The notes beneath the pieces were generated by a model. It saw only the letters and a list, made by a program, of their open reading frames with translations, did not search any database and was not told the DNA's origin. Positions 3,210-54,482 of a stretch of 64,000 bases of DNA are shown here, piece after piece. Location: positions 44,538,483 to 44,602,482 of the forward strand of contig NC_088644.1 in assembly GCF_964019385.1 (NCBI RefSeq), written 5' to 3'. Origin of the DNA: Sycon ciliatum. Lineage: Eukaryota > Porifera > Calcarea > Leucosolenida > Sycettidae. Numbering within the stretch: the first letter of the stretch is position 1; the number at the start of each line of letters is the position of its first letter. Both the position numbers and the translations under genes were made by a program.

Positions 3210-4546
3210 CTGTTCGCTTTCACACATCACTGCCTTCCTCGGAATTGTGCTGGACACGGTGCGCATGGAAGCCCATCTCCCAGACGACAAACCGACGGAC
3301 CTCCGCGAGCTCCTCAGCGAGCTGTCACGCTGCACCCAGACCACGCAACGCAAACTCGATCACTTCCTGGGGAAACTCTCCTTTGCGTCGAGCGTCGTCG
3401 TACCAGGCAGAACATTTACGCGGCGCTTATGGGATATCAACAAGAGGTTTAGCCGCGCCAAGCCCTATTTCCGTATCACTCTGACAGGCATTTCAGCAGC
3501 TGGCACCATCGGCACAGCAAGCCCCGGACACTGCAATCCGCCTCTCTCTCCTGGACTGATGCAGGAGGTCGCCGACCTGGCAGCCATGGCAATCGCCCCG
3601 ACAACACGGCGCACGTACGCCACTGGCGAAAGGAAATTTACGCAATTCTGTGCGTTGCAGAGATGGACGCCCATGCCGGCTACAGACACGATGCCCAGCT
3701 GCTTCGCAGCACACCTCACACAATCGGTTCAACCACAGACAATTCATGTCTACATGGCCGCAGTACGCAACATGCATCTCGAAGCCGGATTCCGAGATCC
3801 AACGATGAACGCATTGCTGCCGCCACGTGTTATGCGAGGCATCAAGAGGACGGCGACTGACCCGGCAATCCAGCGCACTCGCCTCCCAATCACCATTGAT
3901 TTGCTGCGGAAGCTCCTCAACCAACTCAGCCTGGACCAACGGCGTCACCAGCAGGACAAGGGCATGCTCAAGGCGGCAATGGTGCTCGCCTTCTTCGGAT
4001 TTCTTCGATGCGCTGAATTCACTGCGCCTCCAGCCGGGTTTGACCCTGCCACTCATACCACACGCCAGGATGTGACTCTGGATGTCACTCAAGGACGCAC
4101 ATATATCCGCTTCCACATCAAGCAATCGAAGACGGACCAACTTCGTCAGGGCCATGCAGATAATCGGTAGTACCACTTCACAACCTTGCCCGGTTGCCGC
4201 CCTCCTGGCATATTTTACAGTCTGTCCGTCTGACGCCACTGACGCACTCTTCCGCTACCGCCCTGGGAGACCGCTGACCAGGCAGGCACTGACAGAAGAG
4301 CTCCGACAGCTTCTCCCACTCACGGGAACACCCAATTCACGCGATTACGCTGGTCATTCATTCCGCATCGGTGCCGCCACAACTGCAGCCATGGCGGGTA
4401 CCCCGGACTGGCTAATCAGGGCAATGGGCCGATGGAGAAGCGACAGTGTCTTGCGCTACATCAGGGCAACCGACGCAGACATGGGGCAGCTGACCCAAAA
4501 GCTGTCAGAGGTACAAGCGCATCACAGAACGCATGGAGGTATGTAA
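3210..4546 (+). pseudogene. RT remnant fused to tyrosine recombinase
   Basis: 3215-3450 encodes FLGIVLDTVRMEAHLPDDK and GKLSFASSVVVPGRTFTRRL, the C-terminal end of DIRS-type RTs. The palm upstream and the RNase H downstream are both deleted. From about 3540 the frame continues into a tyrosine recombinase: an N-terminal core-binding domain (TTRRTYATGERKFTQFC), then the catalytic domain with the first Arg in GFLRCAEF, the HSFR box (AGHSFRIGAATT) and the distal part GRWRSDSVLRYIR that supplies the nucleophile Tyr. A one-base frameshift near 4150 separates first Arg from HxxR. All four catalytic positions (R-H-R-Y) survive at sequence level. The enzyme would circularise and integrate the cDNA. 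Confidence 0.85.
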
Positions 4547-8460: not shown

Positions 8461-9518
8461 CGGAGGGAGAGTGTGCTGGAGGGGATCAGGCAAGTAGCAT
8501 GTGGGGGTGAGCGGGGCAGTCAAGCACAGACTATCCATGCCCTTGCCACCCTCCGCAAAGAAGAAAGCGAGAACCTTCTGCGTGGGGCAGGATTGCTGCC
8601 CAAGGGTATGGAGGAAGGAATTGGCCTGGCCATCAAGGCAGATCTACAACTCCCGTGGAATGGACTGAGGAATCTCAGGCGCTATTTCAAGCTTTGTGGG
8701 GTTGCCCTGGAGTCTGAGCGAACTATGCGCAAACAGCTCTCGGAGGAGCTGCCGTTTCCGCTCGTTGCGAAGGAGGAGCCTTTACTTGACAGCTCCGAAA
8801 CAGTTGTGAGATGCCCCTTAGTCTGTTTCGAGAATCTTGTGGACCTTGTTCTCCACTACATCAAGCTGAATGATCAAGCAGGAACGCTGGTCTGGGATGG
8901 TCTTCCTGAGGATGAGTTATGGGTGAAAGTCAGTGGTGACCACGGTGGTCATTCTTTTAAATTTTCCTTTCAATTGGTTAATGTTATGCATCCAAATGCA
9001 CTGTATAACACGATTCCTTTTCTAGTATTTGCAGGAAAAGACACGCCCGCAAACCTCGCGACAACCTTTGCACCGTACGCACAACAAATAATCACACTAC
9101 AACAAACAGAATGGCACGGAAAGCACATTAAAGTATCTCTGTTTGGAGACTACGACTTTATGATGAAGTGCTATGGTTTGTCTCGGCCAAGCAGAGTCCG
9201 CCCTTGTCTCTATTGTCTCTCAACAAAAACAGAAATGCAATCCCAGGCAGCTGGCCAGCATTGAGAGCGCACATTGGAGGGCCTTAAAGCCGACCATGCA
9301 AGCTTTGTTGCATCTGGCAGCAGGCTTCAGCATGCGAAGCACCACAACAATGTAATCCGGCCATTTGTTGTGCCGATTGAAATCAGAGATGTTTGCGTGC
9401 CAGTTTTGCATCTAGATTTAGGAATTTTCCCTAGGCTTTTTAAAGCAATGGTAAGAGACGCTGAAGAGCTGGATCTACAGCTAGCGAAGTCACTCTTGAC
9501 AATACAGTCCAGCGCTAG

Positions 9519-9836
9519 TGTAGTATCCCTGCCCGACCAATACGGAAGTAGTACTGAACTAATACGAAGCTTTGCCTGATGTATATTTAGTGTATCTCCG
9601 TATGTAAGCGTACGGCGTCTGCTGCATAAAAGCGGCTGCGCATTTCTGTTTTGATGAAGATGAGATTTTGATAATAACGAGCTATTCAACCTCCAGGTGT
9701 GCACCGGAGAGAAAGTCAGTTATTTTGCCGCTTCTTCTTTCACTAATAATTATATCTCAGGTGTGTACCTGAAAGAAGTAGAGTAAAAGTAATTATTGTT
9801 GATTTCACCGCGCCAACCACTCGGCTACCCATTACA
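9519..9836 (+). repeat. 5' LTR, ubiquitin-LTR element copy 1
   Basis: 318 bp, TG...CA ends, with CTGCATAAAAGCGG as a possible TATA region near 9620. Confidence 0.9.
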
Positions 9837-9851
9837 TTGGTGGCAGCGGTG
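9837..9851 (+). promoter_or_regulatory. Primer-binding site
   Basis: TTGGTGGCAGCGGTG directly after the 5' LTR. The same sequence follows the 5' LTR of copy 2 at 48578. The priming tRNA is not identified. Confidence 0.7.
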
Positions 9852-9914
9852 TAGTTTTAAATAAAACAACGTGATTCGACCCCAGACTCCGATGGCTCAA
9901 CCCGCTACAGCTCC

Positions 9915-10358
9915 GTGCGACGAATCAAGATGAGAATCATGTTTCTTGCCTTCCTCGGCCTGGCACTGCTTATTAGCCTGCAGCTCAGTCAGGGTGCTAG
10001 CGTGTATCACCCTTCTCTCCGCACGGCACACACTGGAGACTCCGATGGCGATTCCAAGCGACCCGCTACCTACATGTATACTACCGGTGGTGATGGCGAA
10101 GCTGATGAGGACGACAACAGGCAGGCTGGTACCCAAGACAAGGAGGGTATTCCCCAAGACCAGCAGCGTTTGATTTTCGCCGGCACGCAGTCGGAAGCAG
10201 GAGCTCACTCTTCACTTGGTACTTCCCCTCCGTGGTGGGATGCAGATTTTCGTCAACACTCTTCCTGGCTATACCATCACTCTTTCCGTCGCGCAAAGCA
10301 ATGCTATCGACAATGTGAAGACCACCATTCAAGACGAGGAGGGAGGTCATTTGTCTGA
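9915..10358 (+). CDS. Signal peptide fused to ubiquitin fragment
   Basis: Open frame of 147 codons. From the second Met (9930) it begins [18 protein letters not shown], a good signal peptide (basic start, long hydrophobic core, small residues at SQGAS). An acidic linker follows ([11 protein letters not shown]), then [17 protein letters not shown], which is ubiquitin residues 31-47 with one change (Pro38 to Gln). The next residue, Lys48 of ubiquitin, is Thr. After that the frame leaves ubiquitin because about 11 codons are missing, and the tail is out of frame. The segment 9884-10036 that supplies the signal peptide is bounded by a 13-bp direct repeat and is absent from copy 2. Whether any protein is made is unknown. 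Confidence 0.55.
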
Positions 10359-10455
10359 CGCCGAGCTAGCCGATTTGAGTGACCGGCTCAACCAAGATGA
10401 AGATAAAACCTGGCTTGCCCTCCGCCGTAGCTCCAGCCGCCGCGGAGGTTACTAA
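10129..10455 (+). pseudogene. Captured polyubiquitin fragment
   Basis: Two frames together give the end of one ubiquitin unit and most of the next. Residues 31-51 (ending near 10196) are followed after a gap by [12 protein letters not shown] (normally STLHLVLRLRGG) and then [17 protein letters not shown], continuing to [10 protein letters not shown]. The junction GG-M is the head-to-tail joint of polyubiquitin. Lys6, 11, 29, 33 and 48 are all replaced; Lys27 remains. After residue 35 the second unit no longer aligns clearly, but the frame stays open and ends RRGGY, like a C-terminal GG plus one extra residue. It is a derived, broken copy of a host gene inside an LTR element. Confidence 0.85.
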
Positions 10456-10937
10456 CGCTGTTTCTAGGTATGGCATTTTCTTTCCTCTCTTCCTTCAGTC
10501 TCCCTGTTCTTTTCAGTCTTCCTTTATGCGAGTGTGTGAATCCAGTTTAGTTTGGTAGGCGTCTGATCATGGTGAGCCACGGCTTACCCAGCTAACGTGG
10601 GACAATGTGTGTGACAACGCCCCTTATAGGTATAATGTATTCAGTTCGGTTTTTGACCTGCGATGTTCCTGGCGGGTTGTGCCAGCGTTGTGCAGCAAGA
10701 GTGCTGTGGTTTTTCAGGTCCTATTTGGAGGACAGTTCTTTCCCCTTTTGACCCCGTGAGATCGTGTGAACCTGGTGTGCTTCTACTTTATGATTTGTTA
10801 TCAGTTCATTTCTTCTGTCTACTCTAAACGTTATCATTTCCGATATAATTTGCCATCTTCCGGTTGACGCTGTGTTCATAACTCTTCACTAATTTTTGGA
10901 AAATCACGAGGGCGTGATTATCTGTAGAAAGGGAGGG
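10456..10937 (+). other. 3' interior of ubiquitin-LTR element with polypurine tract
   Basis: Non-coding, about 480 bp, matched by copy 2 (49038-49526). It ends in AGAAAGGGAGGG (10926-10937) directly before the 3' LTR, the expected plus-strand primer. The origin of the rest (UTR of the captured gene or element leader) is unknown. Confidence 0.65.
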
Positions 10938-11255
10938 TGTAGTATCCCTGCCCGACCAATACGGAAGTAGTACTGAACTAATACGGAGCTTTGCCTGATG
11001 TATATTTAGTGTATCTCCGTATGTAAGCGTACGGCGTCTGCTGCATAAAAGCGGCTGCGCATTTCTGTTTTGATGAAGATGAGATTTTGATAATAACGAG
11101 CTATTCAACCTCCAGGTGTGCACCGGAGAGAAAGTCAGTTATTTTGCCGCTTCTTCTTTCACTAATAATTTTATCTCAGGTGTGTACCTGAAAGAAGTAG
11201 AATAAAAGTAATTATTGTTGATTTCACCGCGCCAACCACTCGGCTACCCATTACA
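10938..11255 (+). repeat. 3' LTR, ubiquitin-LTR element copy 1
   Basis: 318 bp, same length as the 5' LTR, with only scattered substitutions. Confidence 0.92.
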
Positions 11256-12196
11256 CTAGCTTTAACGAAGTTGCAGCAAAACAAAAGCAGCTGCACAACT
11301 TGTATGAAACAAGGCCAATACAAGAACACAGAGCACAAGAAGCTCAAGCTCAGCTGCAGTGGCTATTGCTAGCTAACCAGCAATCCGGTGTGAACCATCA
11401 AGCTGCAGCACTCTTTGCTGCTCAGGCAGCTGCTCTGCAGCACCATTGGGGAACACTCCAAGAACAGCTCCAAGCCACCGTCAAAGACGTAACGCAGCTG
11501 GAGCAAGATCTGACTGCCGTGAAAGTCAAACTTGGTCCGTGCTCCTCTTCTTTCAAGCCGACCTTGTCACAACACATAATCGACTGACAAGCTTACCACT
11601 CTGGAGCTTTCGTTGGAAACCATGTCCACAAGGCTCTGCAGTCCGGAGTTACTGCAGACATTGTGTCTTCTCTATTGCGTACTCTCCACGCCATAATGAA
11701 TTCAGATGGAGTTCCGCTTGTGGATACACAGAGTCAGCATGATCTGCTGCAAGCTGCTGAGACGATACGCCAACGCTGTGCTCTACTTTTCACATCCTAC
11801 GCAAGCTGCAGACAAACATTCTCTTCAACACAGCTTGTTGATGATGACATGTTGTCATCCCTTGGCTTGAAAGTCAAAGACTTCTTGTCTGTTGTACGAA
11901 GAGAGGTAGTCACTCGCCACAAGTGGCCCATCACGCCCAAGCTCCACATCCTTGAACACCACCTTGTGCCGTGTATGAAGCACTTTGGGGTGGTGCTCGG
12001 AGCTCTTGGAGAGCAAGGAGGTGAATCAATACACCACAAATTCAACCTCCTTCGCTCTGGCCTGCAGAACACAAACAAAGATGTTGACCGTCTAAAGTTC
12101 TTGGTCGTGCAGTACCTAACAACCACACTGCCGACACGCAATAAGCTAATAGCTCCTCCAGCTAAAAGAAGAAGAAGCACTAACACAAGTGCTTGA

Positions 12197-15167: not shown

Positions 15168-18131
15168 TCACTTCGGATGAGACAGTGTGGAAAGCTGGAC
15201 TGTGAATTTCCTGATATCCTGGCATGTCTTAATGCTAGTAGGCAGGTTAGACCAAAGGGAGTATGCTGAGAAGAAAGGGGATTTCAAAAACAGAGAGGAA
15301 CTAGCGCGGGGCAGTGATAAGGCATTGCGTGTTGGGCTAGTGGTAACAAACCAGTTGTACTTGGCAATATGTTTCGGGACTTGGGCTAGGAAGATTTTTT
15401 GCACAAGGATACAAAGATGCTGCTGATGTCGGGCAAGAAGAGGGTGCGTGGAAGCAAGTTTATAAAGACAAAGGGAGGCAAATGTTTGGTCTTTTCGAAA
15501 CAGAATTTTCAGAAGCAAGCGTTGATGTACCTCCAGTCTGTGGAGTAAAGTCTGAGACAACCCGCACCAAGCTATATCGCAATAGTCAAATATAGGCAAA
15601 ATGTACGACTTAAAGAACAATTTTCTGCAGTTATCATTCAAGTGTTGGCAGTGGGGTTGTAGCATACCTAAGGACGCACTCGCACGCTTGCACACAGACT
15701 GGACTTGTGGAGACCAGGAGAGTTGGCGGTCGAGAATAACGCCCAGGTGCTTGTGCTCGTTAACAACTTTAATAGGTGTACTATTTAGACCAGGAAAATA
15801 CAGAAGTTGAGTGGGGGGCGAGGGAGAGAAGAACATGGCCTCGGTTTTGGCGAGGTTAGGCTTCAGTTTCCAGGTTTCCATCCATGTTACTGTAGCGTTG
15901 ACCCCGGACTGCATGGAGGCCGTGAGGTTGTCTGCCGAGCTGTCGGAGCACATCAGAGCAGTGTCGTCAGCAAAAAGACTTACATTTGGTACAAGGGCTG
16001 GCAAGTCATTAACGTACAGTAGAAATAGGAGCGGCCCAAGTATGGACCCCTGGGGTACCCCAGACACGACTAGTAATGGGTCTGATAGGGAGGTAGATAC
16101 TCTGACAGTCTGGTGGCGGCAGGAAAGATAGGATGAGAGCCATTGCAGGGCTGGACCGTGTACCAAGAAGACGGACTCTAGCTTTGCAAGCAGACCACGA
16201 TGCCAGACGGTGTCGAAAGCTTTCGCTAGGTCAAAGAACACGATGCCAACATGCCGCCTGAGGTTCCGCTGGGTGTAGATGTCTTGTACTAGACGTGTTA
16301 GTTGGAAAGTTGTGGAGTCTCCACGGCAGAAACCGGATTGAGATGGTGAAAGCGCTGGGGTGACGTGGCAGTACAGAGACTCAAATAAAATACGTTCACA
16401 GACCTTGGACACAGCGGGAAGGAGAGAGATTGGTCGGTAGTTGCCAGCCTGAGAGCGTTGGCCTTTCTTATAGATCGGGACGATAACAGCAGATTTCCAG
16501 ACGGACGGAAATACTCCTGTACGATATGACATGTTAAAGAGCAGGCACAAGGGATAGGACAGAGATGGCGCAAGCCATTTGAGAACCTCATTGGGTATGC
16601 CATCTTCGCCAGGGGACTTACAATTCTTCAGGAGTTTGAGGTGCTTACAGACGGTAGCAGTCGTGGTAACGACGCGTGTGAGTGGTGCGCTAAGTTCAGG
16701 GGCTGGGGACAGCGATGGAATGACCCAATTCGGATCTTCCGGAATGCCGGATGAAACAAACTGCTTGTTCAGTGTGTCTGCAATCGCCTTCACATCGTGC
16801 TGGCGGTTGCCATTGGAGTCCGTCAGGTACTGGATTGGCGCGCGGGAGGTCCCGCGGCACTGGTTGCGAATGAATTGGTGGAGTGATGGGCGATCGGGGG
16901 AGGAGAGTGTTGCAGAAAGAGAGTTTAGAAAGGAGCGGTGTGAGGTACGAGAAAGGTGCTTGACGAAGTTGCGTTGAACTCGGTAAGCCTCCCGGTTAAC
17001 CGGCGTTGGGAATTTCTTGTAGATGCTGAAAAGATCACGCTTGCGCTTCACTTCAGATACGAGGGACCGTGTCATCCATGGGGGACTAGATGTCGAGGAT
17101 GTTGGGTTGGAATGTTTCCGGTTGTTGTAGCCGATAGCAAAGTTAGAGAGGTGCTGTTGGAACCCTCGTTCAAGGACGGCTGCAAAGTGATCTACCGCGG
17201 CGTCAACAGTTGGAGAGCCTTCTGGTTGCAGAAACGACCAGTCGTGGCAGGAGAAATCAGCGTTCATAGAGTCCCAGCACTGAGAGGGAACTCGACGGAA
17301 GCGATATGGGAACGGTTTGCGAGAAGGAAGTGGCAGGTCTGGATCCGAGGGCAATGAGACGGCGAACTGGCATGAAACCATGAGATGGTCCGAGGAGCCA
17401 AGAGCGCAAGCTGTGTGAACGTCCGTCGCCAGCAGGGGTTGGTTCGTGAAGACAAGGTCTAGACATGACTGTGTTCCGGAAGATGTTGTGTGCGTTGGAC
17501 TCTGCACCAGCTGATCCAAACCGAAGCAGGTAAGGGTGCGAAAAAGTGCCGCCCCAGCAGGACACGTTAAATCCGATGGGCACCACCGTTTGTGCTTACT
17601 GTTGAAGTCCCCAGCCATTATGACATGGTACGATGACATGGGAACGGTTACCAAAGCACTAGCTAGCATATCACAGAAGTGGTCTATTTCCGTGGTTTTG
17701 ACTGAGGGCGGACGGTAGGTACAGCAGACGAGGATGGGTGTCGGGGAGCCTAAGATTGGGTGAAGCTCAACCCATACGGATTCACAGGTCGGACGAGCAA
17801 GGTCGTCGCGAACTTGGACTCTTCCGAAGCGATTTTGCCGGACAAGAATCGCAACTCCACCATATCCTCTGGTTGCCGTACCGGATTTGTTATCATGAGG
17901 TGGTCGGTCGCGACGAAATGTGGTATAACCGGAGATGGTGAGCGCTATGCTTGGATTTAGCCATGTTTCATTTAGACAGATGACATCAGGTTTGTTGAAA
18001 TCAGCAATGACAGACAGTTCGGCAGATTTGTTAACGATTGAGCGGCAATTTACGGAAAGCAAGGTCAGTTTACCCTGGCAAGGGGGGAAGTAGGGCCGAG
18101 CCAGTGGATTCAGCTGTGGTCGCGCCATCAT
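15168..18131 (-). CDS. ORF2: AP endonuclease and reverse transcriptase
   Basis: 987 codons without interruption. The N-terminal ~230 residues are an AP-like endonuclease: LLSVNCRSIVNK, CLNETWLNP, IMAGDFNSKH, and GSSDHLMVSC with the catalytic SDH. The RT follows: KSAVIVPIYKKG, NYRPISLLPAVSKVCE, FFDLAKAFDTVWH, SGVPQGSILGPLLFLLYVND and SLFADDTALM with the FADD active site (near 15965). The end holds the thumb and a conserved C-terminal region. The start overlaps the ORF1 stop as ATGATG/TGA, suggesting re-initiation. All catalytic motifs look intact, so ORF2 could be active even though this copy lacks its 5' end. Confidence 0.93.
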   Translation of the reverse strand: MMARPQLNPLARPYFPPCQGKLTLLSVNCRSIVNKSAELSVIADFNKPDVICLNETWLNPSIALTISGYTTFRRDRPPHDNKSGTATRGYGGVAILVRQNRFGRVQVRDDLARPTCESVWVELHPILGSPTPILVCCTYRPPSVKTTEIDHFCDMLASALVTVPMSSYHVIMAGDFNSKHKRWCPSDLTCPAGAALFRTLTCFGLDQLVQSPTHTTSSGTQSCLDLVFTNQPLLATDVHTACALGSSDHLMVSCQFAVSLPSDPDLPLPSRKPFPYRFRRVPSQCWDSMNADFSCHDWSFLQPEGSPTVDAAVDHFAAVLERGFQQHLSNFAIGYNNRKHSNPTSSTSSPPWMTRSLVSEVKRKRDLFSIYKKFPTPVNREAYRVQRNFVKHLSRTSHRSFLNSLSATLSSPDRPSLHQFIRNQCRGTSRAPIQYLTDSNGNRQHDVKAIADTLNKQFVSSGIPEDPNWVIPSLSPAPELSAPLTRVVTTTATVCKHLKLLKNCKSPGEDGIPNEVLKWLAPSLSYPLCLLFNMSYRTGVFPSVWKSAVIVPIYKKGQRSQAGNYRPISLLPAVSKVCERILFESLYCHVTPALSPSQSGFCRGDSTTFQLTRLVQDIYTQRNLRRHVGIVFFDLAKAFDTVWHRGLLAKLESVFLVHGPALQWLSSYLSCRHQTVRVSTSLSDPLLVVSGVPQGSILGPLLFLLYVNDLPALVPNVSLFADDTALMCSDSSADNLTASMQSGVNATVTWMETWKLKPNLAKTEAMFFSPSPPTQLLYFPGLNSTPIKVVNEHKHLGVILDRQLSWSPQVQSVCKRASASLGMLQPHCQHLNDNCRKLFFKSYILPIFDYCDIAWCGLSQTLLHRLEVHQRLLLKILFRKDQTFASLCLYKLASTHPLLARHQQHLCILVQKIFLAQVPKHIAKYNWFVTTSPTRNALSLPRASSSLFLKSPFFSAYSLWSNLPTSIKTCQDIRKFTVQLSTLSHPK

Positions 18132-29574: not shown

Positions 29575-30044
29575 CTACAAACGACAAAGCACAAAGACAA
29601 TGTTGTTCTTGCTTAGTTCCGGGTAGTGCGCAAAACACCGAGTCTAGGGTATAATAATAATAATAATAATTATTATTATTATTATTTTTTAAAAGAGGTC
29701 GGAGGCGGATAATACTTTAAAACGAAGGTAAGTTATGGGTTGCAAATATCCACACAAACACCCATACAGTCATAATAAGGCACTTGTCATAAGTATCCGA
29801 TTATTGTTCAACCATCTACAAACGACAAAGCACAAAGACAATGTTGTTTTAGCTTAGTTCCGGGTAGTGCGCAAAACACCGAGTCTAGGGTATAATAATA
29901 ATAATAATTATTATTATTATTATTATTTTTTTTTTAAAGAGGTCGGAGGCGGATAATACTTTAAAACGAAGGTAAGTTATGGGTTGCAAATATCCACGCA
30001 AACACACATACAGTCATAATAAGGCACTTGTCATAAGTATCCGA
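29560..30044. repeat. 241-bp tandem duplication at PLE-B left junction
   Basis: 29560-29800 and 29801-30044 are near-identical. Each contains the end of the LRR exon, flanking duplicon sequence, a symmetric (ATA)n(TTA)n run and the outermost 110 bp of PLE-B. Confidence 0.9.
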
Positions 30045-30073
30045 ACATTTTCGGTCCCTTCTCATCAAGGATT
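30037..30073 (-). ncRNA. Hammerhead-like motif, PLE-B left arm
   Basis: Minus-strand counterpart of 33122-33155, with the same TTGATGA core and GAAAATGTTC. Stem II is weak. Probably inactive. Confidence 0.4.
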
Positions 30074-30227
30074 ATACAGGGAATGGCTCAAGCTGGAAAG
30101 ACTAAAACTTATATAGCGTAAAGATAATTAGATAACAACACTCGTGACAAGGTGGAAAATTATCAAGTTTAGCACGACACAAAACTCGAAGGAAAATAAT
30201 AATAGTGACAACAACATAGTGAGCAAA

Positions 30228-31007
30228 TTAAGTTACATTGTTACCACCTCGACGAGGAGTAACACCAAACAATTGTAGCGACAACACATTTTCTTTCTGT
30301 ACGCAAAGTTCAGGATCTAACTTACGGATATACAAAGCTTCTAACACAGCCAAATGTAACGCACATCTACCACGTGACAATATTGAGAAAACATTATCAC
30401 TGTACAACTCACGACAATTGGTACGGGCTGACAGATGTTGCTTGATTGACGAAGTGCGATTCTTAGCTCCATTGGGTGTTGTCTCCTCCAATGTCCCGTC
30501 ATCTCGCCTCTTCGTGGCATCACCACTATCTGTCTCTTCGCGTTTCCGCGGCCTTCCACGTTTCTTGACAACAACCGTTGGGTGCGCGATACCCGGTGTC
30601 CTTTCCGTTACGTCTCCTCCATTGCGGATTTCTATTGAGCTTCTTACTCCAACTTGTCCGGTGTCCGATATTGAGGTTAGTTTTCGCGGTCTACCACGTT
30701 TTCGAATATTGACTGTTGTTGTCATTTCCGTTGTCGTTGTACGTTCGTCCTCATCAGTCCGTATTTTCACTTGGCTTCTCGTCACCCTTTCCGACGCCGA
30801 CAGATCCTTTGTCAGTTTCGGTGGTTTACGTGTGGGTCTTTCACCATCTTTTATGCTGTTCTCAGCTGGCCCGTGTCCTACACACGCAGAGGAGGACGGG
30901 CATGCAGTCACATCTTCACGGGAAGAGGAAGATCCTCCGATGGACTGGACAGCGCATTTTGGAGGACGACCACGGCGAGGACGACAATCGCGCGCATCAA
31001 GCGGCAC
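30228..31007 (-). CDS. PLE-B endonuclease C-terminal part with three AT-hooks
   Basis: 259 open codons. AT-hook motifs are RRGRPPK (residues 11-17), KRGRPRK (103-109) and KRGRPRK (149-155). Then SSIKQHLSARTNCRELYSDN and LHLAVLEALYIRKLDPELC form the C-terminal half of the GIY-YIG domain. In the original element this frame followed the RT-endonuclease frame; a 10-bp duplication at about 31000-31013 (GTGCCG repeated) shifts it. The hooks would bind AT-rich minor grooves; their role in target choice is inference. Confidence 0.8.
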   Translation of the reverse strand: MPLDARDCRPRRGRPPKCAVQSIGGSSSSREDVTACPSSSACVGHGPAENSIKDGERPTRKPPKLTKDLSASERVTRSQVKIRTDEDERTTTTEMTTTVNIRKRGRPRKLTSISDTGQVGVRSSIEIRNGGDVTERTPGIAHPTVVVKKRGRPRKREETDSGDATKRRDDGTLEETTPNGAKNRTSSIKQHLSARTNCRELYSDNVFSILSRGRCALHLAVLEALYIRKLDPELCVQKENVLSLQLFGVTPRRGGNNVT

Positions 31008-32184
31008 AACTTAACGGCACATGTTGACGAATGCGTGCGCCCAGGTGCTGAAGGGTTCTACCTACATACCGATCTTCACATTGTCGGCATTGAAAGAAAT
31101 AGATAAGGTTACTTTTACTAAGGGTAGGTAGAACATCCTTCTTCACACTGAACGCACGCACTGTCCCAAATATGACGTACAGCTTGACGCACGGATATGA
31201 TGGACATACGATACCACGAACATCCTTCTCCACGCAAGCAGAACCGGTGCCAACCCAGGGTAAACGGAGCACCACTGGGCAACGGTCAGGTCCAAATTGG
31301 ATAGGCTTGTCTGTCACCGGTTTTTCGTTGATTAGCTTGGCCAGAAATTCCTTTGGATAGCCGTTGTTCGTAAATATTGATGTAAGTCTGTCTAATTCGT
31401 CCTGCAATAGATGAGGGGAACATATTCTATGTGCACGATAAACTAGCGCCTTCACAAGATGTCTCTTCGATTTCGTTGGTGTATAGCTCCCCCACGGAAT
31501 GTAGAGGCCGGTGAACGTTGGCTTCCTATAGATAGTGGTGTCCAAACTCTTAGTGTTAATATTCCGTGATATTTGTTCATCCAAGAAGGATAAGCTGCCG
31601 TTTTGTTCCGCTTCCGACGTGAATCTCAACGCCGGGTGGAGACTATTCAGAGTTAGTAGAAAAGTCCCACAGACATCCTCATCCTCATCGTGACAGTACA
31701 CATCGTCTACAAAACGACAGTACATAGAGGGCCACAATGATGGACTAATGGACGCTTCACAGAACCCTACAAAGATATTAGCCAATACAGGACCAAGCGG
31801 CGAGCCCATGGCAACGCCATCTATTTGTTTATACATAACAATGCCAAATGAAAACTCAACGCCCGACGTAACCATTAACATGAGTTTCACAAACTCCGTT
31901 ATGTTCAAAGACGGCGGAGTAATGGACTTATTGTGGTACAGTGTTGTTGCGCAGATGTCAATGGTCTCCCGTAGTGGCACGTTAGTAAATAAGCTCACCA
32001 CGTCATACGAGCACATGAATCCGCTCGATTCAAAGCTTGCGTCCTTTAGCTTTTCTACAAACTCGAAAGTATCTTTGACGCAGTGGCTATTGTAGAGGTT
32101 GAGTACCGGTTGTAGCATGGCACATAGCCACTTGGATGTTTTAAATTGCGGTGACCCAGACATGCTGAGTATTGGTCGTAAGTT
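30997..32184 (-). pseudogene. PLE-B reverse transcriptase and GIY-YIG start
   Basis: Penelope RT from NLRPILSMSGSPQFKTS (near 32184): CSYDVVSLFTNVPLRETID (first Asp), IDGVAMGSPLGPVLANIF and YCRFVDDVYC (catalytic pair). The linker follows, then the GIY-YIG start NLIYFFQCRQCEDRYVGRTL with ARIRQH. The RT N-terminus is absent and replaced by inverted-arm sequence. A small duplication breaks the frame after RQHVPL. Catalytic residues of RT are intact. Confidence 0.88.
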
Positions 32185-32966
32185 GTGTTCCGCTTGATGC
32201 GCGCGATTGTCGTCCTCGCCGTGGTCGTCCTCCAAAATGTGCTGTCCAGTCCATCGGAGGATCTTCCTCTTCCCGTGAAGATGTGACTGCATGCCCGTCC
32301 TCCTCTGCGTGTGTAGGACACGGGCCAGCTGAGAACAGCATAAAAGATGGTGAAAGACCCACACGTAAACCACCGAAACTGACAAAGGATCTGTCGGCGT
32401 CGGAAAGGGTGACGAGAAGCCAAGTGAAAATACGGACTGATGAGGACGAACGTACAACGACAACGGAAATGACAACAACAGTCAATATTCGAAAACGTGG
32501 TAGACCGCGAAAACTAACCTCAATATCGGACACCGGACAAGTTGGAGTAAGAAGCTCAATAGAAATCCGCAATGGAGGAGACGTAACGGAAAGGACACCG
32601 GGTATCTCGCACCCAACGGATAGTGTCAAGAAACGTGGAAGGCCGCGGAAACGCGAAGAGACAGATAGTGGTGATGCCACGAAGAGGCGAGATGACGGGA
32701 CATTGGAGGAGACAACACCCAATGGAGCTAAGAATCGCACTTCGTCAATCAAGCAACATCTGTCAGCCCGTACCAATTGTCGTGAGTTGTACAGTGATAA
32801 TGTTTTCTCAATATTGTCACGTGGTAGATGTGCGTTACATTTGGCTGTGTTAGAAGCTTTGTATATCCGTAAGTTAGATCCTGAACTTTGCGTACAGAAA
32901 GAAAATGTGTTGTCGCTACAATTGTTTGGTGTTACTCCTCGTCGAGGTGGTAACAATGTAACTTAA
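32172..32966 (+). CDS. Inverted-arm copy of the PLE-B endonuclease C-terminus
   Basis: Same protein as 30228-31007 on the opposite strand, with the same three AT-hooks and only a few substitutions (for instance AHPTVVV against SHPTDSV). It remains fully open, so copying or conversion between the arms is recent. It lacks RT and GIY/YIG strands and is not expected to be functional alone. Confidence 0.8.
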   Translation: MVVSCVPLDARDCRPRRGRPPKCAVQSIGGSSSSREDVTACPSSSACVGHGPAENSIKDGERPTRKPPKLTKDLSASERVTRSQVKIRTDEDERTTTTEMTTTVNIRKRGRPRKLTSISDTGQVGVRSSIEIRNGGDVTERTPGISHPTDSVKKRGRPRKREETDSGDATKRRDDGTLEETTPNGAKNRTSSIKQHLSARTNCRELYSDNVFSILSRGRCALHLAVLEALYIRKLDPELCVQKENVLSLQLFGVTPRRGGNNVT

Positions 32967-33121
32967 TTTGCTCACTATGTTGTTGTCACTATTATTATTT
33001 TCCTTCGAGTTTTGTGTCGTGCTAAACTTGATAATTCTCCACCTTATCACGAGTGTTGTTATCTAATTATCTTTACGCTATATAAGTTTTAGTCTTTCCA
33101 GCTTGAGCCATTCCCTGTATA

Positions 33122-33155
33122 ATCCTTGATGAGAAGGGACCGAAAACGTTCGGAT
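33122..33155 (+). ncRNA. Hammerhead-like motif, PLE-B right arm
   Basis: ATCC/GGAT stem I, TTGATGA, GAAAACGTTC. The stem II sequence GAAGGGACC does not pair well and C3 is T. The position equals that of the better hammerheads in the other PLEs. Confidence 0.45.
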
Positions 33156-33171
33156 ACTTATGACAAGTGCC

Positions 33172-33204
<33 letters not shown>

Positions 33205-35847: not shown

Positions 35848-38800
35848 TCAAAAACGATCCGGGGCTCTGACTACGCGCCCAGAACGCGTCATCTCCTGCT
35901 GCCGTGGTGGTGGTAACGGTGCTGACGGTTCATACGCTGGCTGCTGAGGGACGATAGCAGGTTGAGCGGTATCGGCATGCCCAGGGGCCACGTCCTGTGA
36001 CGATACTTCTAATGGCACTAACCTTTGGATCGGCCTTAACAGGGTACTGGTACTCAACTTAACCTTGGCAACACGACGCTTACCATCTCGACCAGGGAAT
36101 AACTCGATGATCCGTCCCAAACGCCAGAACTGTTTGCGCTTGGTATCATCGAGAACAAAGACAACATCACCCATAGCTAAAGGGCGCGACATGGTCTGTT
36201 GGTGCTTGTTCAGCTGACTTAGGTACTCCACCTCCCAACGATTCTTGACATGCTCCAGTGTCCGACTGAGGTAACGCAATCTCGATGACATCTGCGCAGC
36301 GTCCAGGGTACCTGCTGGCTTCTCCGACGACATCCAGATGTTACCCATCATCATTGCAGGGGTTACTGGTGGCTCATCCAGGCTATCAGACACATAAGTT
36401 AGCGGACGACTATTCACCACTGCTTCAACCTCATACAAGAGGGTTTCAAGCTCCTGGACCTTCAGAAACGCTGTTCCCATTACCTTTTTCAAGGCACTCT
36501 TCACTGTACCAACCATTCGCTCATAGAAGCCTCCATGCCATGGTGCAGCTGGAGGATTGAACATCCATGGCACACTCAGTTTGTCAGATGCCGCCTTGAA
36601 CGTTGTAGCGTTATCAGACCTGATCCGAGACGGCAAACTACGTCTCGCGACAAACTTCCGAAATGCCATCAAGAAAGACTCGGTACTTAAACTATCGACC
36701 ACCTCCAAGTGAACTGCTCTGGAGGTGGCACACACAAACAATGCTATCCATACCTTCGGAGATGACTCACCATGGCGCACGTACAACGGACCAGCATAGT
36801 CGATGCGGGTAGTTGCGAACGGCCTCTTGTGAACAACTCGGTCTTCTGGCAGCGGCGGCCAGACTTCTGAGGCAGCCTTAGCCTTATAGCGGCGGCATGT
36901 AACACATCGCTGAGTAATGTTGCGTAGCGCTCGTCGACCACCGATAATCCAGAATTTCTGACGGATGAACGACAAGACTCCTTCTACACCTCGCTGCATC
37001 CTTTCAACATGCATTTTCTCCAACAGCAACTCGGTCAGATGATATTTGCCTAACAGAACTGGGTGCTTGGCTCCATACGCCAACTCGCTGTGCTGAAGTC
37101 GTGCCCCGGCTCTGAGCACTCCATGCTCATCCAGAAACGGTGCAAGCTGATACACCTTCGACCCGGGCTTCACTGGTTGACCTTGCTTGATCAGCTCAAG
37201 ATCCTCAGCGAAACATGCGGCTTGAACGATGCGGTACAATACGTTGTCTGCTGCAAAATAGAGTTCAGCACGAGGCTCAGTGTGCTTCCACTGCAACATC
37301 CGAGTCACCATGCCCTGTGCCCTCGACCATTTACTGAATCGGAGCCACCATTCCTTATCAGATTCTCGACTACAGGTGGTGGCTGACACTCGTACTTCTA
37401 CACTGGACTCATCTGTAGCTGCGGTTGAGGATGCGGTGGGCCAGTCATTGGGCTCCGTGATCCAGGTTGGTCCGCCCCTCCAGAACGGACTACGGATCTG
37501 CTGTGCACTACTCCCACGCGACGGTAAATCTGCTGGGTTGTGAAGGCCCGGGCAATGGTTCCACACAATGCCGACCTTCTTCGATATCTCTTGGACTTGA
37601 CTGACGCGGTTAGCCACAAATGTTTTCCATTTGTACGATGGATTACTGATCCAATGAACGGTAGTGAGACTGTCAGTCCAGCCATAAACTTGCGTGACGG
37701 TCACACGCAGCTCCTTCACCACAAACTCAGCGTAGCGAGCCGCTAGACATACTGCTTGTAACTCAAGGCGGGCTAACGTGGGCGGAGACACAGGTGCCAC
37801 TTTCGCCTTGGCAAATACCAAGTGCGACTGTCCATTGACGACTGCATACAAACAACATCCAAACGCTTTCTCACTGTCATCGGCGAAGGCATGAAGCGCA
37901 ATTGGCGTGTCAAGATTGCAGCAAATCCAACGTGGTATGTCAATGCTCACCACTTCGGCCAACTCTCCCCACCATTGCGCACATGCGGTTGCGATGCCAT
38001 CAGGCAACATATCATCCCAGTCGCCTCCGACTTTCCAGGCTTGCTGTAGCAGTATCTTTCCCGGCACAAATGCCGGTGCTGCTAGACCTAGCGGATCAAA
38101 CACTGATGCAACACACTTGAGGAGAGATCGCCGGGTCCAAACAGACGGCCTATCGGACTCGCCTAGCGCTGCTATGCTGAGCAAGTCATCACTGGTTTTC
38201 CATTTCAGACCGAGGACTTTATCTCCGGCCTCTGGATCGCACGGGATTTCGTTGCCTCGCCACTTGCGTAACTCCATGCCAGCATCCGTAAGCACACGCA
38301 CGCTGAACTCTTGCATCTCCTTGGCTTCCGAGGCATTTGAGACACTAGAGACCAAATCGTCAACGTAGAAACTCGTGAGCAAGAGATCAATACGATCTCG
38401 CTCTTTGGGTGCAGACAACGCCCGTAGCTCCTTCAAGTGATGCTGAATCACCGCAGTAAGCATGCACGGCGAGCAGTTTACGCCAAATGGCAGTTTCGTT
38501 AGCCTCCAGGTTAACAGTTCATCGCTGTCGCTTCGACCGGGCCACAAGAAACGCAGGTACGGACGGTCTTCGGGATTAACCGCGACCATGAAGAAAGCCT
38601 TGCGGATGTCCGCTTGCAGCGCGCTCTTATATTCACGGAACCGTAATAGCATACCTGCGAGACTTGGCAATAGCGACGGTCCAGGGTCAACCGTGTCGTT
38701 CAACGACTTGCCATCTGGAGCCATCGCCGAAGCATTGAACACCACTCTTAATTTCGTGGTTGCAGCGTGCTCGCGGAATACACCATGATGCGGTACATAG

Positions 38801-40764: not shown

Positions 40765-40794
40765 GCTCGCTCCTATCCTGGCGTGGTCGCCAAA

Positions 40795-41136
40795 TGTTAT
40801 GAACCCTCTAAGATTCTCTAAATTGTCAGGATCGTACGACCACACGGCACGAGGACAACTCTTTTCCTTTACACAGTATATTTCACTTCATCGAATAATT
40901 AAAAATGAACACTAATAACACCAGCTATTTATAGCATGCAAAAAAACAGCGTACATGCAAAACATAAGCATATAAAACTGGACATAACAGCGTATACAGG
41001 AAAACGCACACAACGCATATAGCGTATGCCATGCAGCAACATCAGCGGTATGGCGGAGTCGAAATACAACATTTCAACGAATACAATGCCATAAGCGCGA
41101 AGGCCTTTCCCAATTGAGAACTGGTGGTTTACAACA
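40795..41136 (-). repeat. BEL1 5' LTR
   Basis: 342 bp. It carries the promoter-like TATAAATAGC (reverse strand, near 40930). Confidence 0.92.
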
Positions 41137-47905: not shown

Positions 47906-48236
47906 AATGAATACCGTGGAAGCCACACAAGAGCAGTATATACGCAGAGTGTAGCGCCAAAAAAGATGCGAATTATGTCACCTAGTATGCAGAAAGGGGG
48001 GGGGGCGGACAGAGAGAGAGAGAAAAGGCGCAACTAGCACATGACGGAGGAGAAGCAGCAGAAGGTAGCGCGCATTGTGCTCTGTGAATGGCGTTACGCA
48101 GAGTGTAGCGCCAAAAAATAAGATGATGCGAGTTATGTCACCTCTATACAGAGGGGGGGGGGGGAGAGAAGGTGCAACTGTGCACATCACGGAGAAGAAG
48201 AGCGCGCCGTTGTACTCTACGAAGTGAGGGTACATG

Positions 48237-48577
48237 TGTAGTATCCCTGCCCGACCAATACGGAAGCAGTACGGAACTAATACGGAGCTTGCCTGATGTA
48301 TATTTAGTGTATCTCCGTATGTAAGCGTACGTCGTCTGCTGCATAAAAGCGGCTGCGCATTTCTGTTTTGATGAAGAGAAGATTAGATTAGATTGGATAG
48401 CAATCAAAGCTAACTCGAAGAATAAGGATTCAGCCTCTAGGTGAGCACCGGAGAGAAAGTTATTTATTTTGCCGCTTCTTCTTGCAATAACGATTATATC
48501 TCAGGTGTGTACCTGAAAGTAGAATAAAAGTAATTCTTGTTAATTGCACCGCGCCTACCACTCGGCTACCTATTACA
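48237..48577 (+). repeat. 5' LTR, ubiquitin-LTR element copy 2
   Basis: 341 bp. It differs from the copy 1 LTR by a different internal stretch (AAGATTAGATTAGATTGG region), so the two elements are separate subfamilies. Confidence 0.9.
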
Positions 48578-48709
48578 TTGGTGGCAGCGGTGTGTTTTAG
48601 AACAACGTGATTCGACCCCAGACTACCATGGCGATTCTAAGCGACCTGCTACCTTCATGAATACTACCGGTGGTGATGTCGAAGCTGATGAGGACGACAA
48701 CAGGCAGGC

Positions 48710-49037
48710 TGCTGCCCATGACAAGGAGGGTATTCCCTAAGACCACCAGCGTTTGATTTTCGCCGGCACGCAGTCGGAAGCAGGAGCCCACTCGTCACTT
48801 GGTACTTCGTCTCCGTGATGGGATGCAGATTTTCGTCAACACTCTTCCTGGCTAGACCATCACTCTTTACGTCGCGCAAAGCGATGCTATTGACAATGTG
48901 AAGACCGCGACTCAAGACGAGGAGGGAGGTCATTTGTCTGACGCCGAGCTAGCCGCTCTGGGTGACCGGCTCAACCAAGATGAAGATAAAACCTGGCTTG
49001 CTCTCCGCCGTAGCTCCAGCAGCCGCCGTGGTTACTA
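48710..49037 (+). pseudogene. Captured polyubiquitin fragment, copy 2
   Basis: Same arrangement as copy 1: DKEGIP then a stop, [15 protein letters not shown], then in another frame [11 protein letters not shown] followed by a stop, and the tail to RRG-Y. The stops at residue 38 and after LPG show it is more decayed. The internal gap of about 11 codons is shared with copy 1, so it predates the split of the two. Confidence 0.8.
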
Positions 49038-49526
49038 ACGCTGATTCCAGGTATGGCATTTTCTTTCCTGTCTTCCTTCAGTCTCCCTGTTCTTTTCAGT
49101 CTTCCTTTATGCGAGTGTGTGAATCCAGTTTAGTTTGGTAGGCGTCTGATCATGGTGAGCCACGGTTTACCCAGCTAACGTGGGACAATGTGTGTGACAA
49201 CGCCCCTTATAGTTATAGTGTATTCAGTTCGGTTTTTGAACTGCGATGTTCCTGGCGGGTTGTGCCAGCGTAGTGCAGCAAGAGTGCTGTGGTTTCAGGT
49301 CCTATTTGGAGGACAGTTCTTTCCCCTTTTGACCCCGTGAGATCGTGTGAACCTGGTGTGCTTTTACTTCTATTTTATGATTTGTTATCAGTTCATTTCT
49401 TCTGTCTACTCTAAACGTTATCATTTCCGATATAATTTGCCATCTTCCGGTTGACGCTGTTGTTCGTAACTCCTCACTAATTTTTTTGAAAATCACGAGG
49501 GCGTGATTATCTGTAGGAAGGGAGGG

Positions 49527-49830
49527 TGTAGTATCCCTGCCCGACCAATACGGAAGCAGTACGGAACTAATACGGAGCTTTGCCTGATGTATATTTAGTG
49601 TATCTCCGTATGTAAGCGTACGTCGTCTGCTGCATAAAAGCGGCTGTGCATTTCTGTTTTGATGAAGAGAAGATTAGATTAGATTGGATAGCAATCAAAG
49701 CTAACTCGAAGAATAAGGATTCAGCCTCTAGGTGAGCACCGGAGAGAAAGTTATTTATTTTGCCGCTTCTTCTTGCAATAACGATTATATCTCAGGTGTG
49801 TACCTGAAAGTAGAATAAAAGTAATTCTTG
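49527..49830 (+). repeat. 3' LTR left part, ubiquitin-LTR element copy 2
   Basis: Follows the purine tract GAAGGGAGGG. It is continued at 53412-53451 after the TTAA insertion. Confidence 0.9.
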
Positions 49831-50082
49831 TTAAAGGGGAACTCCACGAAAAAATGAAAATTTGATAGCCTGTAGAGTTTCGGGCGCTGAGTCGAATGGT
49901 CTTGGTCCGAAGTCTCTACGAGAAAGCGTTCTTGAGATATTTCAATTTTAGCCACGCCCCATACCAATGTATGTGTGACGTCATTGTGGCAATGCGCGAA
50001 AATACTTGGATTTTGAATCTCACTTTCTTCAGGACGAAAGTCACTTCAGAAAGTAGTTTGCCAAGTCGCCTGAGCCGCTGCA

Positions 50083-50278
50083 ATGCCAAATTGTTGTGTT
50101 GTTGATTGTGCCAGTATCACATCATCCTCCTGGGGTTAGTTTTCTCAAATTCCCAAAGGATGGAGACCTGGCAAAGCGCCGAGATGTTGCAATGCGTCGT
50201 GAAATTTTCAACCCTATTTTCGCAGCACGAGCTATGTTTGCTCGCTGCATTTATGATCCAGAGGGACTTGAGAGCTGA
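50083..50278 (+). pseudogene. THAP domain of a Kolobok-like transposase
   Basis: Starts MPNCCVVDC (first Cys pair of the C2CH finger). A one-base shift near 50134 leads to VSFLKFPKDGDLAKRRDVAM, which holds the FP of the THAP core. The last Cys and His pair cannot be assigned, and a stop ends it at 50276. Confidence 0.65.
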
Positions 50279-51303
50279 GTTTTGACGAGTACGCCGTCCA
50301 GGAAAGCCCTCATCAGTGTACCAGTGCCCTCCGAACCGTGAGCCTCCAGCAAAGCGAACTCAACAAGCTGCAACTGAGAAAGCAGGGCGAGATACGTCCC
50401 ATCAGGATCAGAAGAGTACATCACCCCATCAACTCCGACTGCAGCTAGCTGATGAACGATATTACCCCAGTAACTTTGCGCATACCAGTACTCAAACTGT
50501 GCACATCTGTCATCAACTGGGACGCAAACAGACAGACCCCCAGCAAGTACGAAGGTTACAGAACTGTTTGCTTGCGATGTGCAGGCAGCATGCACGACGA
50601 ACTGTCTCACCAATCCTGCCAAACTGAACCAGTGTAAGTTGATTGCGTGGATATGTCTCTATTTATAACAGCTACCCTACTTCTAGGCATGGTTGCATGA
50701 ATACCATATCACTCAGAGCAGTTGTTAGAAGTCTGGACAGCCTTGGAATAGTGCAAGTAAAGTGAAACAAAAATATATTACACTCCGAGTTCCACGCTTG
50801 CGGGATCACCAGGCCAAAAAAATCTAATTTCGAACAAGGAATGGGTTCTGGTTGTATGCGAAAGAAAAGTAAGTGAAGACCTATTGTGCAAGGAATACAG
50901 TGGGAACTACACATATTATACACATGCACTCACACCATCACCCACATGCGTGCGCGTGCGTGTGCGTGCACACACACAAACACAACAACACACACACATA
51001 CGCACCCACATACTCAAACTCACTCGCACGCACGCTAGCCTAAGGATAGTACATATGCTGTAGTAGTGGTATACTTAGTGAAATGACTATGTGTACATCT
51101 AATGACGCCGCCACTCCACGCCAGAAGACAACAAACATCTGCTGCAACATTTTTGCTCCCGTCTCTTATGGGCAACACAGGGAATGAAACGAACAATGCA
51201 ATTGAGAACAAGAGTCGTCCTGTACGGTGAAGTTTCCATTTTCTCATACAGCAGTATATTGTCTAAGCAAGTGTGTTTTCTCCACATTCTTTTTGCCATG
51301 CAG
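50279..51303 (+). other. Transposon interior with dinucleotide repeat
   Basis: Possible linker coding at 50280-50640 in shifting frames, not recognised. An alternating CA/GT and GC tract lies at 50938-51022. No catalytic motif found. Confidence 0.4.
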
Positions 51304-51673
51304 GTATATCACAGTGTCATGCCAAACTACATTCTCAAACGCATTCGTTTCTCAATTCTGGGGATGATTGGACACGCACATCTCGCAGCTCTTGACGACG
51401 TCAATGTCAACCGTCGCCACAGCACAACCAAAAAGACCGTGATAGGAAGGTATAAAGTCCAGTTCTCAAAGCATAAAGAAGACTGTGGCCAAATAGAAAA
51501 TTATACGACAGAAAGAGCTATGAGTATGTTGACAAGCTCATGTGTGAGGTGGTAGCGGTTGCAAATGGCAACCTCCATGTTCCTGCCTTGGAGAAGCGTG
51601 TTTCCCTGCCAAATTCCAGGTGGAAGCCTCCTGAGAAGGCTGAGGTGGTGCAGGATTTGGATATCTTTGCCTG
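51304..51673 (+). pseudogene. Kolobok-like transposase C-terminus
   Basis: After a TTTTTGCCATGCAG acceptor-like site the frame gives VYHSVMPNYILKRIRFS, HLAALDDVNVNRRHSTTKK and a Lys-rich stretch, then in a shifted frame NLHVPALEKRVSLPNSRWKPP. This recalls the end of Kolobok transposases. The catalytic region upstream is not recognised, so the call rests on this pattern and on the TTAA ends. Confidence 0.5.
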
Positions 51674-51817
51674 ATGGTATTCACAACGCAGGCTGGAAGA
51701 CGACAACGAACGTGCTTGCCCAATTTGCCGTGTACATAGTGTGTACTGCCTGTGTGCCGCATAGCGTAGAGATCTACACAAACACAGAATGTCATATGGA
51801 ATGTGTATGATGAGTGC

Positions 51818-52764
51818 TTGTACACATACCACATTGCTGTACCGTAATAATTATTATAGTCAAATACTCATTTACTCTACATATGCGCTGTATTGCACCT
51901 ACCGGTACCTACCTGCACTTTCAGTGCGCGCGCCATACTAATTTAGTGTCCACTGGTACAAAGATGGAGGGTCTTGTAGAATTTACCATAATTGCTGATT
52001 TCAAATTGAATTCCAATGATCTGGGGGATGAATACTGATTAGGACGCGTTCGATTACCTACTAGTACAGAGATGTCTTGGTCAGAAAGTACAGATTTCTT
52101 ACTCTCCTGCCAGAATTTGTGCATTATTTTGGTGTACGCTTTCTTGACCCCACGCTTGTACGTTGCATGCCATGGTATACTAGAAAACGAGTTTATTGAC
52201 AAAGTCTATCGCTTGAAACGATAAAGTATGGGTTCGGTTGTGATCAAATGCACCCATGGTGCTCATAAACTGTGTGCAGTGCTCTCTTCACCAACAGAAC
52301 ACTACCTACCATACTTTGTAGATCTTGTACCAATCCAAGGGAAAATGACAAAGACAAATGTGAGTCATGCATGAAAACTTGTGATAGCACGGTCTATAGT
52401 ACAGAACACCGTTGTTCGTGCTATGCCTGACAACAATAATTAGTTACACACAAAACATTACGCGCATCGATCCTCACAAGATAAGTCAAGACATACTCGG
52501 AGCAAAGAGAAATTTGTTTGTGTCATGCATGAAACTTGTGATAACTACCAGTACAATGTCTTTCTTGTGCGACGCCTACTGTAGTGCGCCTGACAACAAT
52601 AAATTTCCCCCAAAAAATAAGAATAAGTGTATCATGCTGATACGCGATCCTCACAAGACAAGTCAAGGCAAACTAATTGAGGCTTACCTAATGTCAGACT
52701 CTTCTGTCACTGGCATTGGCGGCTTCTGCATGTCGAGATAACCTCGAAGAGCAGTGATGAGCAC
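51818..52764. other. Transposon interior, duplicated ~165-bp segment
   Basis: 52335-52500 and 52520-52680 are related (GTCATGCATGAAA, CCTGACAACAATAA, GATCCTCACAAGA...AAGTCAAG). No coding pattern. Confidence 0.6.
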
Positions 52765-52864
52765 AGCCTAATGCAAGGATGCGATCTCGTAATCTGCGAG
52801 GTCCGCTACGCAAGAAACCTTGGGCCGTCTTGTCGACAGCGACGGCAGCATCCTACCAGCAAAA

Positions 52865-53167
52865 TCATTCCCGCGGGCTGGGCATGGCTATACACTTTTG
52901 TCCACGCTCGCACCAGTCGGAGTCCCAAACGAATCGAGATTCTGGTGGCCAAGCTACTCGTCTTCTGTCGGACGCAGCTGCTGACGCATCTTCTTCCTCC
53001 ACATTTGTTACACGCGATGGCAGCTCCTCAGCAGAGTATCTGGGCTCCCTGCCCCAACCATACGCGGCGGTGGGCTGTTGGTCGTCCTCACTGGCCTCAG
53101 CATCGCTGCCTTCATTGCTGGGGACAGAGGATTGTTCGGAATCGCCCATCTTCCCTTGAAATACCAA
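52865..53167 (-). CDS. Second, opposite-strand ORF of the Kolobok-like element
   Basis: 100 codons. Starts MVFQGKMGDSEQSS or at the inner Met (53149), acidic Ser-rich beginning, then GREPRYSAEELPSRV and WCERGQKCIAMPSPRE before the stop. The WCxxGxxCxxMP pattern recalls the cysteine-rich domain also found at the C-terminus of P2X7 receptors and in many transposon-linked proteins. The match is short and the domain is cut off. Role unknown. Confidence 0.4.
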   Translation of the reverse strand: MVFQGKMGDSEQSSVPSNEGSDAEASEDDQQPTAAYGWGREPRYSAEELPSRVTNVEEEDASAAASDRRRVAWPPESRFVWDSDWCERGQKCIAMPSPRE

Positions 53168-53455
53168 CTAAAATAATTAGTGCTTGTAGACTGGCGAAGA
53201 GAAACGACTTTGCCACAATGACGTAGGCAGCCCGTGATGATGTAACCAAATGGCCGCATGACGTCAGGGCGCGGCCCCCGTTTTTGCAATTTCAAAGTGA
53301 AATATCTCAAGAACGCTTCGTCGTAGAGACTTCGGACCAAGACCATTCGACTCAGCGCCCGAAACTCTACAGGCTATCAAAGTTTCATTTTTTCGTGGAG
53401 TTCCCCTTTAATTGCACCGCGCCTACCACTCGGCTACCTACATGTATTACACATG

Positions 53456-54384: not shown

Positions 54385-54482
54385 ACAACAGCTCGTCCCG
54401 CGGCCCAACTCCTGTTGCCGCCGTTGGTGTTGCGTCACCCAGTGGGCATACGACCAATGCTGAGCCAGTCCTATAGCGGGCG

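Follow-up and report, generated by a model that had tools for sequence, protein, structure and literature searches.

The question raised by this locus is how pieces of ubiquitin coding sequence came to lie between long terminal repeats (LTRs), and whether the resulting combination has itself moved. In the window, that is, the whole stretch of 64,000 nucleotides that was analysed, two insertions of this kind, copy 1 and copy 2, were delimited (Table 1). They probably belong to a non-autonomous LTR retrotransposon family, the interior of which is a doubly chimeric host cDNA that would have arisen by template switching. An earlier note on this DNA had described a family of LTR elements that had taken up a polyubiquitin gene; the mobile part of that description was borne out, whereas the nature of the cargo had to be revised as set out below.

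Table 1. Features of the two element copies, in window coordinates
Feature	Position	Strand	Remarks
Copy 1, target duplication CTAG	9515..9518, partner 11256-11259	+	Supported by rebuilt empty site
Copy 1, whole element	9519-11255	+	1737 bp, LTR to LTR
Copy 1, 5′ LTR	9519..9836	+	318 bp; has TATA-like ATAAAAG (9626)
Copy 1, primer binding site TGGTGGCAGCGGTG	9838..9851	+	Just past LTR; identical in copy 2
Secreted acidic protein, N-terminal part	9930..10133	+	In 48 clusters and Sycon ciliatum P0041; signal-peptide-like start (by eye), acidic stretch
Ubiquitin residues 31-76, with frame-shifting deletion of about residues 50-63	10134..10239	+	By tblastn; 20 of 48 clusters keep the stretch
N-side junction motif CAAGACAAGGAGGG	10134..10147	+	
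Ubiquitin residues 1-35	10240..10344	+	Codon 11 TAT here, TAG in copy 2
C-side junction motif CAAGACGAGGAGGG	10330..10343	+	1 mismatch to N-side motif
Secreted protein, C-terminal part, to GGY and stop	10345..10455	+	P0051 form matches P0041
Copy 1, interior past captured stop	10456..10925	+	Without recognised coding sequence
Copy 1, polypurine tract AGAAAGGGAGGG	10926..10937	+	Just before 3′ LTR
Copy 1, 3′ LTR	10938..11255	+	318 bp; AATAAA at 11201
Copy 2, target duplication CATG	48233-48236 and 53452-53455	+	
Copy 2, whole element	48237-53451	+	Includes transposon-split 3′ LTR
Copy 2, 5′ LTR	48237..48577	+	341 bp
Copy 2, interior	48578..49526	+	Same chimera; MQIF at 48823; codon 11 TAG
Copy 2, polypurine tract AGGAAGGGAGGG	49515-49526	+	Directly before 3′ LTR
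Copy 2, 3′ LTR	49527..53451	+	Interrupted by inverted-repeat transposon

Both window copies possessed the features of an LTR retrotransposon, namely paired LTRs, TG..CA ends, a target duplication, a primer site and a purine tract, and host-type coding sequence (secreted protein and ubiquitin) was located between the LTRs. In copy 1, the LTRs were identical at 315 of 318 positions and ended in TG..CA. When its flanks were joined and one CTAG was removed, an open frame of 193 codons spanned the site, compared with 104 and 121 codons at the two existing junctions and 116 codons when both CTAG copies were kept. An ORF with a match to DUF1280 (8473-9264, plus strand) ended just upstream of the frame cut by copy 1. 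The primer site TGGTGGCAGCGGTG presumably corresponds to a tRNA-Leu-like 3′ end; no tRNA gene was found in the 64-kb window. The interior beyond the captured stop codon in copy 1 is perhaps the 3′ UTR of the captured gene or a remainder of the element.

The LTR pair of copy 2 shared 306 matches with 1 mismatch and 1 gap over its first 300-odd bases, and 38 matches with 6 gap positions in its short tails. The 3′ LTR also housed a TTAA-flanked transposon of 3.6 kb with long inverted repeats (49831-53411), and the signal-peptide region was missing through a deletion private to this copy. Since the two LTRs within each copy were nearly identical, both insertions look fairly young. Between the copies, the LTRs showed 288 matches, 26 mismatches and 31 gap positions, while 91.5% identity was shared over 1218 columns covering the interior and most of the 3′ LTR; a deletion scar in ubiquitin was common to both. 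When up to 3 mismatches were allowed, the LTR end motif was present 4 times in the window and absent from 100 shuffles. To judge from their sequences, copies 1 and 2 inserted separately and belong to different lineages of the same family. Thus, two insertions with ubiquitin between the LTRs, as proposed in the earlier note, are real, being backed by the LTRs, the TG..CA ends, the 4-bp target duplications and the empty-site frame of copy 1, and the primer sites, purine tracts and target duplications claimed there were present in both.

Several other mobile sequences were observed in the window. Two reverse-transcriptase ORFs (30016-33178 and 53451-56838) were Penelope-like by eye, with Pfam RVT_1 matches below the cut-off, and inverted repeats of 993 nt (99%) and 934 nt (100%) overlapped or enclosed them. 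An uninterrupted BEL/Pao-type ORF of 1665 aa (35848-40845, minus strand) matched peptidase A17, reverse transcriptase and integrase zinc-binding models, and an apparent broken relative was located at about 59261-62860. A LINE-type ORF of 987 aa, likewise uninterrupted (15168-18131, minus strand), encoded an endonuclease and a reverse transcriptase, and two overlapping ORFs (3247-4546, plus strand) were tyrosine recombinase-like by eye, the first of them having no Pfam match.

The element was read as non-autonomous because the scanned frames yielded no gag/pol. Ten of the 12 stop-to-stop frames (at least 35 residues) overlapping 10456-10937 of copy 1 were searched and gave no Pfam match, and a Pfam scan of five further pieces returned ubiquitin only; the scan was exhaustive neither for the 5′ interior of copy 1 nor for copy 2. 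The previous statement that gag/pol is lacking stands within this scope. As to an autonomous partner, no further LTR of the same kind was present in the 64-kb window, and an LTR 20-mer had no match in genome-contig or viral-contig collections from which the window's own genome was possibly left out. TRIM and LARD are types of non-autonomous LTR element. TRIMs are very short, with LTRs of about 100-250 bp and an interior of a few hundred bp; with 1737 bp and LTRs of 318 bp, the present element lies outside that size.

The coding sequence on the two sides of ubiquitin was traced with the N-terminal part alone, which retrieved 49 proteins from 53 candidates: 48 clusters from ENA records and P0041, a protein of the calcareous sponge Sycon ciliatum with the record title 'transcription initiation factor TFIID subunit 7-like, partial'. 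P0041 possessed the same start and acidic stretch (local score 232 of its N-terminal part against P0006), had no ubiquitin, and continued directly with GDLSDAELDALSDKLNQEED, the block located behind the second ubiquitin piece of the element. For the C-terminal part, the P0051 form scored 85 against P0041, the best of 2000 shuffles of the P0041 tail scoring 53; P0041 stopped short of the last residues of the C-terminal block of the element. As P0041 matches both flanks, one gene for a secreted acidic protein continues across an inserted ubiquitin unit. P0041 is known as a single partial protein, and its own gene might be located within an element. Searches with peptide patterns of the N-terminal part gave 96 and 16 candidate stretches, none of them confirmed, in collections possibly without the window's own genome. 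Two other readings of the flanks were rejected: a death domain in the LSDAEL..LNQDED block, proposed by eye, had no Pfam or PDB support, and the idea of a decayed ubiquitin tail (RR..RGGY) in the last block was given up, since the start of this block belongs to the secreted protein of P0041.

After its signal peptide, P0041 contained 22.5% Asp and 17.5% Glu, with a pI of 4.05. Spicule-forming cells of Sycon ciliatum are described in one account as producing three secreted Asp-rich proteins of 143, 158 and 418 residues with pI values of 3.6 to 3.8 (PMC5390275), two of which were not detected in the spicule matrix by a later paper (PMC12419799). These proteins and P0041 are set side by side here by description, and no kinship is claimed.

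The joined ubiquitin pieces matched ubiquitin with tblastn E values of 3e-22 and 6e-20. Single pieces scored 22.1, 16.9 and 19.9 bits with the Pfam ubiquitin model, below the curated cut-off of 25.4, as expected since ubiquitin is broken into pieces. The distance from QDK to the next MQ was 46 residues in 15 of 17 full-type clusters measured (those keeping residues 50-63), and 45 and 48 in the other two, while that from MQIF to QDEEG was 30 residues in 3 of 3 clusters. As 46 and 30 add up to 76, the insert is one circularly permuted ubiquitin unit, consisting of residues 31-76 followed by 1-30, with 31-35 repeated. The fusion was in frame on both sides, and in the DNA of copy 1 one 14-base motif, CAAGACRAGGAGGG, was found at both joints between secreted protein and ubiquitin. 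Neither window copy retained a whole 76-residue unit with an RGG end, as a functional ubiquitin gene would; in both, ubiquitin was permuted, deleted and frame-shifted. The captured 'polyubiquitin gene' of the earlier note is thus replaced by one permuted unit inside a captured secreted-protein gene; the broken segment and its scar are common to both copies as described there, but the second piece runs to residue 35, not 15.

The N-terminal part occurred in 48 further clusters on dozens of contigs; all 49 matches together comprised 99 member sequences, the longest contigs being of 43 different sizes. These mosaic relatives on other contigs apparently belong to the same animal, probably a sponge, and the named relative P0041 points to a calcareous one. 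A readable in-frame ubiquitin word was present in 39 of the 48 clusters; among the nine without one, some were frame-shifted, and P0042 departed from the family sequence before ubiquitin. With P0041 excluded from the full-type count, 20 clusters kept ubiquitin residues 50-63, 18 had the frame-breaking deletion of the window copies and 10 were unreadable there. Hence the shared internal gap of the earlier note characterises one type and not the family. The codon-11 stop of the next ubiquitin unit ended 21 of the 48 clusters, whereas codon 11 was Tyr or Glu in three clusters of 71 residues. The joint between ubiquitin and the C-terminal part was found in 6 clusters from 7 candidates, and three of these (P0050, P0052 and P0054) had longest contigs matching in size those of the N-side clusters P0040, P0017 and P0026, so they are probably the other ends of the same copies. 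Three of the 48 clusters (P0004-P0006) contained LVAAV, as the primer site would read, and such reading through the primer site hints at an LTR context for copies beyond the window. LVAAV was preceded there by other residues and followed by another leader, unlike that of P0001 and P0002; as read from the protein letters alone, the chimera may be present in at least two LTR lineages.

A tree of the N-terminal part, constructed without the deleted-type rows P0038, P0039 and P0049, the ten unreadable rows and P0050-P0055, was star-like and almost unsupported, with 2 of 34 inner branches starred. Deleted and full types did not form separate groups in it (9 changes each; as low in 36 and 25 of 500 label shuffles), and the starred branches forced at least 2 changes between the types, so that recombination would have to be assumed if the deletion arose only once. 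P0044, of the deleted type, and P0040, of the full type, shared one common N-terminal part with 100/97 support. This mixing of types suggests recombination between copies, as between packaged RNAs.

Whether the two window copies could be the only loci with ubiquitin, an ordinary element having undergone local or segmental duplication, was considered because both lie in one 64-kb window. This is barely credible: their target duplications and flanks differ, their LTRs differ in length and sequence, and the 48 further clusters, 39 of them with readable ubiquitin, refute it unless they are assembly duplicates. The same independent target duplications, divergent LTRs and further clusters uphold the earlier proposal that capture preceded insertion and that the chimera itself has transposed, and they speak against the local duplication that had been named there as a refuting condition. 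Direct uptake of polyubiquitin by an LTR element, the rest of the interior being ordinary element sequence, would account for ubiquitin pieces between LTRs, but both coding flanks belong to one protein, which in Sycon ciliatum occurs free of ubiquitin (P0041), and this course is very improbable.

A weightier alternative is that the chimera originated as a host gene through recombination at the DNA level and that an LTR element took up its spliced mRNA in one step. Both junctions are in frame, and only two of the 17 changes relative to ubiquitin, I61V and L67I, affect the 18 positions that we take to be its core; in-frame joints and a spared core would be expected if a fusion protein had once been made and constrained. 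The sparing is, however, not significant (hypergeometric 0.20), no element-free copy is known, and microhomology at both joints fits template switching equally well, so a host-gene origin seems unlikely. Under the preferred reading, template switching, reverse transcription would have taken place inside particles of an autonomous relative, where the enzyme would have switched from LTR-element RNA to the mRNA of the secreted protein and, either in that round or in a different one, into polyubiquitin mRNA, leaving it at the same short motif one unit later. Entry and exit at a motif one ubiquitin unit apart would yield exactly the permuted unit observed. The present spread would proceed in trans, through transcription from the LTR, packaging by proteins of the relative, tRNA priming and integration with 4-bp duplications.

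The open reading frame carried by the element is most likely a passenger. The commonest readable form has a stop in place of ubiquitin Lys11, and its product would therefore consist of a signal peptide and an acidic stretch followed by the C-terminal portion of ubiquitin. It is conceivable that such a secreted product, which includes a portion of a lysine-poor ubiquitin, benefits the element or its host and has been selected: lysine sites were changed in 6 of 8 cases versus 11 of 73 other sites (Fisher p 0.0008; 5 of 7, p 0.003, without Lys11), and changes before the codon-11 stop numbered 8 in 56 versus 9 in 25 from the stop on (p 0.039). However, the latter comparison gave p 0.069 without codon 11 itself, both tests were post hoc on a short hand-made consensus, the post-stop half of which depends on few sequences, the 18 clusters with a frame-breaking deletion still multiplied, and P0006, modelled from its single sequence, gave a mean pLDDT of 53 and no confident fold. 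Selection of the carried frame is accordingly doubtful, and the lysine and before/after-stop patterns are regarded as leads only. The combined view holds that a non-autonomous LTR family in an animal assembled a new gene for a chimeric secreted product, an acidic protein with a permuted lysine-poor ubiquitin, and spread it, and that this product was selected during the expansion; it is considered improbable.

Capture of host genes by LTR elements is already known from maize Bs1, the Veju TRIM and metazoan retroposition. Bs1 is an LTR element with pieces of three host genes, and the present family resembles it in carrying segments of several host genes (PMC13317346). In contrast to Bs1, the genome here is apparently that of an animal, ubiquitin is a donor, the family is multicopy, and the second donor is nested in frame inside the first at one repeated short motif. 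In animals, host mRNA can be copied between LTRs by LTR-mediated retroposition (PMC8232201). Unlike such retrocopies, the chimera described here combines two genes, keeps the LTR signals and has multiplied. LTR-mediated retrocopies of host genes were reportedly treated also by Tan et al. in 2016, with template switching as the mechanism. The Veju TRIM of wheat has gained extra sequence by template switching (PMC13317346). With TRIMs and LARDs the element shares LTR signals, no visible gag/pol and a presumed dependence on a partner, but it differs from TRIMs in being longer and in having host coding sequence as its interior.

Pestivirus RNA genomes contain ubiquitin insertions that serve polyprotein cleavage. 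The likeness lies in the recombination of ubiquitin mRNA in frame into a replicating RNA, and the difference in that the carrier is here an LTR element and no cleavage role is apparent for ubiquitin. Among the literature matches listed, taken by titles and the starts of abstracts and with most subscription journals outside their scope, none concerned capture of ubiquitin by an LTR element. Should the other copies likewise prove to be flanked by LTRs, an animal LTR element would have carried a second host gene in frame within a first and then multiplied the result. With a ubiquitin-free relative and a repeated 14-base motif at hand, both switches would be readable at the level of single bases, and the way in which selfish reverse transcription may give rise to new secreted genes would become directly testable.
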